From: Eubacterium sp.
GTDB lineage: Bacteria; Bacillota; Clostridia; Lachnospirales; Lachnospiraceae
Length of the DNA: 42,348 bases
Direction: 5' to 3'
Assembly (NCBI GenBank): GCA_017477505.1
Contig: JAFUVQ010000039.1
Location: forward strand, 1-42,348
Shown here: piece after piece, positions 24,450 through 41,734 of the stretch
How positions within the stretch are numbered: the stretch's first letter is position 1
How the letters are laid out: each line of letters begins with the position of its first letter
Translations under genes and position numbers: made by a program
Notes under the pieces: model-generated
Told to the model about the DNA's origin: nothing
The model's input: the letters and a program-made list of their open reading frames with translations, nothing else
The model's database searches: none

Positions 24450-24499
24450 CTTCGTGTAACAGCGGCGCATGTCGCAAGCAACATGCTTTATCAATTTAA

Positions 24500-24583
24500 A
24501 AAGGGGAGCTGTTAAAATGGCTGAGAGGAGACTGTGAGTCTCGACCCGTAACCTGATTTGGATAATGCCAACGTAGGGATATG
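24500..24583 (+). promoter_or_regulatory. TPP riboswitch (THI element)
   Basis: The conserved TPP aptamer blocks are in order: GGGG near 24503, CTGAGA (24521-24526), ACCCGTAACCTGAT (24544-24557) and GCCAACGTAGGGA (24567-24579). Between CTGAGA and ACCC lies the variable P3 hairpin (GAGACTGTGAGTCTC region). TPP binding folds the aptamer and, with the terminator at 24602-24638, should stop transcription of the salvage genes when thiamin pyrophosphate is plentiful. Confidence 0.95.
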
Positions 24584-24601
24584 ATTTATTTGAGATTCTG
24601 T

Positions 24602-40174: not shown

Positions 40175-40855
40175 TTATTTTTGGTTATGCTTCATTCTTT
40201 GCCAGTTTATAAATCCATACAGATCATTTATCAGGAAACATATAAAGCATATGACCATTGGAAGGTAGAATATGTGTTCCATAGAAGCAAGTGACCACAG
40301 GATGATAAGAATTATGTCATTGGCTGCGTAAAAAAGAGCGTAGTAAGGACTTCTCATCAATGTGAGTGATGAGGCCATGAAGCTAGTTGTGATTGATACT
40401 GTTGAAGGAATCATATTTGGAGTATTAAGTCTCTTCAATATGAAGTAAAATATAGCTGTAACAATAAAGGCAAGGAAAGAAAGAATTGTCCATAGTTTTG
40501 GAGAAGTATGTCTAACGCGTACTTCTCCATTTTTGTATGGATTCCTAATCCATGTGATTACCGCGCCTGCAGCTATAGGAGCGGTCATTCCAAGATAGGT
40601 TATCATCTCGCCGTAGTATCTGAATTTATATGAGACGATACCGTAGAAGAGTGAAAAAACAACGGTTAGTACCTGACCGAGTACATCTCCTTTTGCCACA
40701 AAGATTAATGCGGTGACTCCTATTAATGAAGCTACGAGAGTGTAAGTATTTCGCTCAGTAAATATAAAATATGCGATCAAACTGGCGATAACACATAAAC
40801 ACCACATGAGTATTTCGTACCATTTTAATCGTTTAACAGACTCCAGTAAATTCAT
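40175..40855 (-). CDS. pnuC: PnuC-family transporter (nicotinamide riboside-type)
   Basis: This 226-residue protein has seven or so membrane spans and the PnuC hallmarks: VAKGDVLGQVLTVVFSLFYG (about 53-72), then YKFRYYGEMITY (about 76-87), and the WxxxNxxY-like elements in the last third (AANDIILIILWS, LINDLYGFINW). PnuC proteins move unphosphorylated vitamins by facilitated diffusion, trapped by later phosphorylation; relatives take thiamin or riboflavin instead, so the substrate is inferred. The start at 40855 is preferred over 40903 because GGGAG lies nine nt upstream; the 40903 ATG has no binding site and falls inside a terminator hairpin. Expression probably depends on the leader at 40889-40973. 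Confidence 0.85.
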   Translation of the reverse strand: MNLLESVKRLKWYEILMWCLCVIASLIAYFIFTERNTYTLVASLIGVTALIFVAKGDVLGQVLTVVFSLFYGIVSYKFRYYGEMITYLGMTAPIAAGAVITWIRNPYKNGEVRVRHTSPKLWTILSFLAFIVTAIFYFILKRLNTPNMIPSTVSITTSFMASSLTLMRSPYYALFYAANDIILIILWSLASMEHIFYLPMVICFICFLINDLYGFINWQRMKHNQK

Positions 40856-40888
40856 TCCAGCAAACTCCCGTAAAATGTTCATAAAAGT

Positions 40889-40973
40889 AAAAAACATCCG
40901 CATAACTGCAGCTTCTAAGACCTAACGCTTACAGTTGTGCGAATGCAAAAGCATTCTGTTACCCGGTGGCAAC
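40889..40973 (-). promoter_or_regulatory. Structured attenuator leader of pnuC (candidate riboswitch)
   Basis: Read on the minus strand, GTTGCC (40973-40968) pairs with GGTAAC (40963-40958), and GAATGC (40956-40951) pairs with GCATTC (40946-40941) around a TTTT loop. Next, 40945-40930 can pair with 40910-40895 as a 16-bp stem with one mismatch and two G-U pairs, followed by six Us (40894-40889): a good intrinsic terminator. Hairpin 2 and the terminator share bases 40941-40945, so they compete. The layout is that of a ligand- or protein-controlled attenuator. It does not match a known riboswitch class that I can name. Confidence 0.65.
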
Positions 40974-41000
40974 ATTTTTCATATTTATTAAACTTCGATA

Positions 41001-41029
41001 ATACTATCAGAGCAGAGTGCTTAAGTCAA
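41001..41029 (-). promoter_or_regulatory. Promoter of the pnuC leader
   Basis: On the minus strand TTGACT (41029-41024), a 17-nt spacer and TAGTAT (41006-41001). The -35 box overlaps the stop codon of the upstream tetR gene. The start site near 40994 leaves a leader of about 140 nt before the pnuC start at 40855. Confidence 0.6.
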
Positions 41030-41586
41030 CTATTTCGTTTATCAGATAGTCTCGTCAGATATGCCTCAAGTGTGGCCTTAATCTCATCAGGTGAATCAGT
41101 CATTCCGCGGTCGACCCATTTGAAAATGATATTCCATATGGCTCCAATATTAAATGCTATCAGATAGTCAGGATCAAGATCGCCAATCATCTGGGCAAAT
41201 GGATTTCCACTCAAATCAAGGGAACAGTTTAACTCCGGAATTACAACATTTAGTTTTAATAATAGCAGGTAAAGAAGATTATTCTTATGAAGCAGTTCAA
41301 GCAGTTCTCTGTTCTTATCACAGAATTTAAAGATTACTGAAAGAGGTCCATCCGGGGATGAAGTCAGTGCAACAACATATTCATGTATCGCGTTAGTTAT
41401 AATTGAATCCAGAACATCATCTTTTGAAGAAAAGTTATTATAAAATGTTTTTCTTTCCAGAGGTGTTTCCAGAACTATCTGCTTTACAGATATCTCAGAA
41501 TAAGGGTGATCCTGCATTAGCTTAAGTAATGCATCGGAGAGCTCTTTTTTTGATCTGATTGCAGATGGGTTTTGAGAATTGTTCAT
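41026..41586 (-). CDS. TetR/AcrR family transcriptional regulator
   Basis: This 186-residue regulator has a TetR helix-turn-helix at about 10-55 (RSKKELSDALLKLMQDHPYSEISVKQIVLETPLERKTFYNNFSSKDDVL) and a helical C-terminal ligand domain ending YLTRLSDKRNS. The ATG at 41586 is preferred over a TTG at 41613 because the AAAGGAAAGG site precedes it and none precedes the TTG. It is transcribed towards pnuC, whose promoter overlaps its end. On the other side it diverges from the HXXEE gene, and the shared gap holds repeated GATAAG boxes that suit its operator. Confidence 0.85.
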   Translation of the reverse strand: MNNSQNPSAIRSKKELSDALLKLMQDHPYSEISVKQIVLETPLERKTFYNNFSSKDDVLDSIITNAIHEYVVALTSSPDGPLSVIFKFCDKNRELLELLHKNNLLYLLLLKLNVVIPELNCSLDLSGNPFAQMIGDLDPDYLIAFNIGAIWNIIFKWVDRGMTDSPDEIKATLEAYLTRLSDKRNS

Positions 41587-41616
41587 GACTATATGGTGCC
41601 TTTCCTTTTTCAAATC

Positions 41617-41657
41617 ATCTTATCCATAAACTAATAAGATAAGATTTTTGTTATCTT
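41617..41657. promoter_or_regulatory. Cluster of GATAAG/CTTATC half-sites, candidate TetR operator
   Basis: ATCTTATC (41617-41624) is the reverse complement of GATAAGAT (41638-41645), and AAGATAA (41636-41642) is the reverse complement of TTATCTT (41651-41657). Three half-sites are thus spaced across 41 bp, 31 nt upstream of the tetR start, in the divergent gap. Confidence 0.5.
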
Positions 41658-41734
41658 GAAACAGTTTTCCATTGAGGAAGACCTCATAGTAAATTACACA
41701 TATATGCAAGTTTGTGTATCTTTCTTCGAAAGTA

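Follow-up and report, generated by a model that had tools for sequence, protein, structure and literature searches.

In this study, a 42,348-nucleotide (nt) stretch of DNA from Eubacterium sp. (Lachnospiraceae; contig JAFUVQ010000039.1), here called the window, was analyzed, and an 88-nt structured leader on its minus strand (40976-40889), flanked by genes of the tetR and pnuC families, was assigned with high confidence to the guanidine-IV riboswitches (GGAM-1 or mepA motif), as a transcriptional ON type controlling the PnuC-family gene. The leader is a real, well-conserved riboswitch, and the class and its association with such genes are very probably those already in print. Two modest points were not found in the excerpted literature: an extra hairpin, P2, is enriched among the copies that precede PnuC genes, and the PnuC clade linked to the element lacks the WxxW motif. 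The assignment removes the false lead of a new vitamin riboswitch. Publications are cited below by their PMC numbers, from excerpts of their text.

Structure and conservation of the leader

The leader opens with P1 (40974-40957), a hairpin of seven pairs with the loop ACCG (40967-40964). P2 (40956-40941), the extra hairpin, has six pairs (GAATGC-TTTT-GCATTC), and its 3' strand doubles as the 5' arm of an intrinsic terminator (40946-40889). The outer stem of this terminator pairs 40946-40938 with 40902-40894 and runs into TTTTTT (40894-40889), while the inner stem, P3 (40936-40904), has nine pairs and one bulge. The terminator carries a conserved 14-nt open loop, GTTAGGTCTTAGAA (40926-40913), in which GGU (40922-40920) pairs with ACC of the P1 loop (40967-40965) to form a kissing loop. 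P1 and P3 were defined by both folding and covariation. The fold of 40889-41000 reaches -31 kcal/mol (z -3.35), a value equaled or bettered by 1 of 200 shuffles. The original prediction, made from the letters of this DNA, had described a structured, terminator-bearing pnuC leader with the architecture of a transcription-attenuating riboswitch, in which the second hairpin competes with the terminator. All of this was borne out: the coordinates and the minus strand are right, the leader is conserved, and bases 40946-40941 are common to P2 and the terminator stem. Its aptamer (40973-40941) was drawn too narrowly: the conserved core also includes the terminator loop that pairs with the P1 loop.

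Related loci were collected by a PnuC protein scan of named genome contigs, from which the best 80 of 90 were taken. They yielded 64 leaders (L072, L075, L094, L103 and L106 were skipped), 12 of which were left out to give a 52-row alignment. A covariance model, R1, was built from these 52 pnuC leaders, without the P2 pairs and without the loop-loop interaction. The original prediction had proposed a search for covariation in homologous pnuC leaders, and covariation was found: 97.2% of the cells in the 52 leaders are paired and both partners change in 14 of the 23 pairs, more than in any of 500 shuffles; five pairing measures beat 500 of 500 shuffles. With R1, 67 of the 80 related loci (E < 0.0001) were seen to have the element ahead of pnuC; 47 of these were in the training set and 20 were outside it; two of the 80 (L072 and L097) begin at a contig end. 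P1, P3 and the terminator also covary in 100 broader copies aligned to R1, and the top pair of P1 is C-G in 80 and U-A in 15 of 99 distinct rows. In the same 100 copies, three bases of the P1 loop pair with three of the terminator loop. One of these pairs varies, being A-U in 46, G-C in 46 and G-U in 8, and since this interaction lies outside R1, such variation supports the kissing loop by covariation. The loop letters are near-invariant, and they are almost identical ahead of PnuC, SMR, MATE and PNPOx genes.

These results bear on the simplest alternative, that the stem is an ordinary, non-sensing terminator of the upstream tetR gene. It does start 80 nt past the tetR stop codon and carries a U tract. 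However, the near-invariant loop letters, the covariation of P1, P3 and the loop-loop pair, and the recurrence of the element ahead of pnuC all speak against it, the loop conservation by itself contradicting it, and in L028 and L030 tetR is separated from the element by other genes. An ordinary terminator is thus given almost no credence.

The window leader is the sole R1 match in its own genome (74.1 bits). At E <= 0.001, R1 matches occur in 108 of 392 genomes sampled from the order, in 73 of 391 from the class and in 21 of 398 from the phylum, the three samples overlapping. The related pnuC loci include metagenome-assembled genomes of Sphaerochaeta, Treponema, Fusobacteria and Tidjanibacter, besides Clostridia. 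Some loci differ in copy number. For example, L110 carries two elements about 600 nt apart on its minus strand (893-975 and 1504-1586), before a PNPOx-like gene and pnuC, and in L077 a weak R1 match (25.3 bits; 1747-1820) stands just ahead of the main one (1857-1938), possibly as a tandem or decayed copy. Three close relatives, L048, L052 and L054, have no R1 match upstream of pnuC; a tRNA-like stretch, judged by eye, is found where L045, L046 and L049 have the element.

A candidate promoter, TTGACT-17-TAGTAT, lies upstream of the leader on the minus strand (41029-41001). Its -35 box, TTGACT (41029-41024), overlaps the stop codon of the tetR-family gene, and TAGTAT (41006-41001) follows after 17 nt. 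It is likely to be the promoter of the leader, as had been proposed: by eye, it is retained in the three nearest relatives (L028, L029 and L030), but a promoter scan of 40800-41700 gave 3 sites against 3.2 expected, which is not above chance.

Downstream genes and class assignment

To describe the regulon, the first sizeable downstream frame was read at 181 R1 sites in 180 loci. Four of 185 R1 rows had been dropped (one antisense and three weak extra rows); the 181 include the window itself (L108), one duplicate (L182 = L275), and weak, probably false sites such as L186. PnuC genes were assigned by profile and the other classes by sequence motifs. The next gene was of the MATE type at 55 sites, PnuC at 54, PNPOx-like at 19, SMR at 17, radical SAM at 3 and DUF1989 at 1. 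In a Pfam check of one 70-residue piece from each of five classes, SMR, PNPOx-like and DUF1989 scored above cut-off, while the MATE (22.5 of 24.9 bits) and radical SAM (15.2 of 29.5) fragments fell below it. Judged from sequence, this is a guanidine-like regulon, and it was by this gene set (MATE, PnuC, PNPOx-like, SMR) that the guanidine-IV class was recognized.

The DUF1989 gene is that of L176, where the element lies at 1501-1585; we take this family to be tied to guanidine or urea breakdown. When neighbors were clustered across the 80 pnuC loci, the largest recurrent family occurred in 6 loci of one lineage. A kinase stands downstream of pnuC in three of the 80 (L079, L092 and L103), presumably a pyridoxamine kinase. 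An SMR match above cut-off was found in 13 of 118 genomes, too few to test whether linked PnuC and SMR genes overlap. In the genome of the window, the only SMR-family match (contig C53, 3290-3490) is a frame with one internal stop.

The guanidine-IV riboswitch was reportedly described in a second discovery paper, by Salvail and others, in 2020 (cited in PMC9788692 and PMC11611296). In a study published in that year, the GGAM-1 motif was presented as two hairpins joined by a pseudoknot, with a terminator, most commonly ahead of SugE; it binds guanidine near 0.2 mM and acts as an ON switch (PMC7736828). PnuC- and MATE-class transporters were also associated with it, and may be guanidine exporters (PMC7736828). 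The kissing loop is reported to prevent terminator formation (PMC11611296, PMC12186494). Four loop mutants of the 95 Lla RNA marked positions needed for binding: M1 (G66C), M2 (U67A), M3 (G72C) and M4 (G62C) (PMC7736828). By spacing, in a tentative mapping, G66, U67 and G72 would correspond to 40921, 40920 and 40915 of the window. That the ligand is guanidine and that the switch is of the ON type are carried over from this published work on other members and are probable to that extent.

Several points weigh against this reading. Membership in the class rests on what the papers say, on how the mutant positions are spaced and on the set of downstream genes. G62, which is about 90% conserved, fits G40926 only with one extra U. 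At 29 of the 181 sites the downstream gene is of another kind and at 3 there is none, and a few weak sites are probably false. Finally, the window PnuC scores above the NCBI cut-off for nicotinamide riboside transporters (74.9 vs 42.45 bits). Because it passes this cut-off and also matches structure 4qtn, the transporter label may mislead or may be right.

Rfam gave no help in naming the class. At gathering level, the whole window held nothing but a thiamin pyrophosphate (TPP) riboswitch (RF00059, 65.9 bits), outside the leader on the plus strand (24492-24596); we take the frames after it to be thiM and thiE, forming an ordinary thiamin operon. On the leader, at E up to 10, there were three chance matches only. 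The element was likewise unmatched in nine PnuC-linked loci (E up to 1) and in 15 loci linked to SMR, MATE or PNPOx genes (E up to 0.5). Since these 24 related loci, SMR- and MATE-linked copies among them, are also unmatched, the missing Rfam match is no argument for novelty. An Rfam scan can thus miss a widespread, published riboswitch class. The earlier statement that the class could not be named does not hold, as the class is in print as guanidine-IV with PnuC-class targets (PMC7736828), though without an Rfam match.

Putative P2 antiterminator and the linked PnuC clade

The distribution of P2 was examined at 160 sites, 21 of the 181 being unparsable, and P2 was scored where the stretch between P1 and P3 folds alone at -3 kcal/mol or better. 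A fold of this type was found in 41 of 53 PnuC-linked copies, compared with 7 of 50 linked to MATE, 1 of 16 to SMR and 2 of 17 to PNPOx genes (10 of 83 for the latter three). The enrichment before PnuC gave a Fisher p-value of 9e-15, or 1.3e-13 without duplicate elements; both are too small because the copies are related. R1 was trained on PnuC leaders, yet it holds no P2 pairs. Only 30 of the 53 PnuC copies combine this energy with a fold better than their own shuffles at 5%. In 51 distinct leaders, the linker suits the terminator arm of the same leader better than permuted ones, a fit reached by 0 of 500 permutations; the same (0 of 500) was found for the 24 leaders with an uncommon arm. Within a single genome, G406, the PnuC-linked copy has P2 and the MATE- and PNPOx-linked copies do not. 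In G388, one SMR-linked and one PNPOx-linked copy have P2, and P2 is therefore a subtype that is enriched, but not exclusive, before PnuC. No description of this hairpin was found in the excerpted guanidine-IV literature.

P2 may be fitted into the published mechanism as follows. Without ligand, the long stem 40946-40894 and its U6 tract would stop transcription ahead of pnuC. When guanidine, a small toxic compound, is present, ACC of the P1 loop would pair with GGU of the terminator loop, making the binding pocket, and the kissing complex so stabilized would block closure of the terminator, so that pnuC is transcribed. P2 would retain the terminator 5' arm until the 3' arm is nearly complete, and for this reason it may be viewed as an added antiterminator. 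The terminator state was computed at -30.5 kcal/mol and P1+P2+P3, loop pairing not counted, at -24.1. In predicted folds of the growing RNA, P2 persists to 40896 and the terminator appears from 40894. The decision would thus be left to the final nucleotides ahead of the U tract. In the P2 subtype, kissing-loop antitermination and the classical kind might be teased apart.

The controlled gene (40855-40175, minus strand) encodes 226 residues matching NMN_transporter (PF04973) and TIGR01528; its start is likely ATG at 40855, behind a ribosome-binding site, GGGAG (40869-40865). Profile scores divide the PnuC proteins into 125 distinct members of the window clade (at least 279 bits) and 20 others (at most 249 bits), and a tree built from 51 of the former and 20 of the latter groups the window clade on a long branch with support 0.71. 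With linkage counted by R1, the element was found at none of the loci of the 20 others (11 + 9 loci), and the only Rfam hits near those genes were two tRNAs, with no riboswitch. The WxxW motif, to which substrate binding in PnuC is ascribed (PMC7162841), occurs in 0 of the 125 window-clade proteins, and only 8 have any W in that segment. In the 20 unlinked proteins, EQ[WY]xx[WYF] stands at the place of the motif in 20 and strict WxxW in 14, the column match between the two groups being uncertain by one residue. All 125 clade members share E83, D180 and D211, while the 20 others have A, S, N or T at position 211. By hydropathy average, D180 lies within a hydrophobic stretch, D211 just outside one and E83 clearly outside. 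The loss of WxxW and the invariant Asp211 are what would be expected of a changed substrate, perhaps a cation. Neither feature of the clade was found in the excerpts of the guanidine-IV literature.

The gene name had led the original prediction to a vitamin or NAD-related ligand, and a new class sensing nicotinamide adenine dinucleotide (NAD+), nicotinamide mononucleotide (NMN), nicotinamide riboside or another vitamin must be weighed. The downstream gene is indeed annotated as a nicotinamide riboside transporter, and the leader has no Rfam match. However, the element also stands before MATE, SMR and PNPOx-like genes, the linked clade is without WxxW, and the unlinked homologues that keep the aromatic motif are without the element. 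In addition, the leader fits a published guanidine class whose targets include PnuC genes (PMC7736828). The new-class reading falls because the leader matches a known class, the outcome named beforehand as its refutation, and a vitamin sensor is now highly improbable. For NAD+-III, NMN or nicotinamide riboside riboswitches, nothing was found in the open-licence PMC literature, and the excerpt of PMC11109978 names no such motif.

A variant of the guanidine-IV fold with another ligand is also unlikely, though less remote. Such a variant has been proposed for Gd4v, with the same fold and mechanism and an altered pocket; its D1 position is never G, SMR genes are never downstream, and its ligand is unknown (PMC9788692). 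Gd4v shows that the specificity of the fold can change (PMC9788692), P2 sets the PnuC-linked copies apart from most others, and the PnuC clade may transport a substrate of its own. Against this, both candidates for D1 in the window leader (40915 and 40926) are G, and the loop letters match those before SMR genes, which Gd4v never precedes.

Under the guanidine-IV assignment, the window PnuC may export guanidinium. In the open-licence PMC literature, PnuC and guanidine export were found together in PMC7736828 only, and that suggestion of 2020 now gains sequence support. It is conceivable, though somewhat short of probable, that the PnuC proteins encoded after guanidine-IV switches make up a clade of their own, which lost WxxW, has an invariant D211 in the final helix and acts as a guanidinium exporter under a mistaken vitamin-transporter label, and that their switches form a distinct subtype adding the P2 antiterminator to the kissing loop. 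Genes labeled nicotinamide riboside transporter in many Clostridia may belong to guanidine defence, which would be a testable correction of annotation.

Comparison with known systems

The NAD+-II riboswitch (pnuC motif) resembles the window leader in preceding a pnuC gene. It is found almost only in Streptococcus, and its pseudoknot lies at the ribosome-binding site, in contrast to the terminator used here (PMC7749635, PMC10085692; also considered through PMC8632094). The class does not match: in alignments to its two printed strands (PMC10085692), 101 of 300 and 273 of 300 shuffled leaders scored as high as the real one; no covariance model was compared. The HMP-PP (thiS) riboswitch is likewise an ON switch with parts of its aptamer inside a terminator hairpin with a conserved loop (PMC6478431). 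It differs in genes and ligand, and the leader has no Rfam match beyond chance, though whether a thiS model is among those of Rfam 15 was not checked. Gd4v shares the overall fold and the presumed mechanism; its terminator has an extra hairpin (PMC9788692), whereas the leader has the 14-nt open loop, and SMR genes are among the targets of the present element.

The closest likeness is to guanidine-IV itself. The leader has the two hairpins and the loop-loop pseudoknot, its 3' hairpin is an intrinsic terminator (stem 40946-40894, U6), and, like the class, it has conserved loop letters and SMR, MATE and PnuC genes downstream. What this copy and most PnuC-linked copies add is P2, which uses the 5' arm of the terminator.
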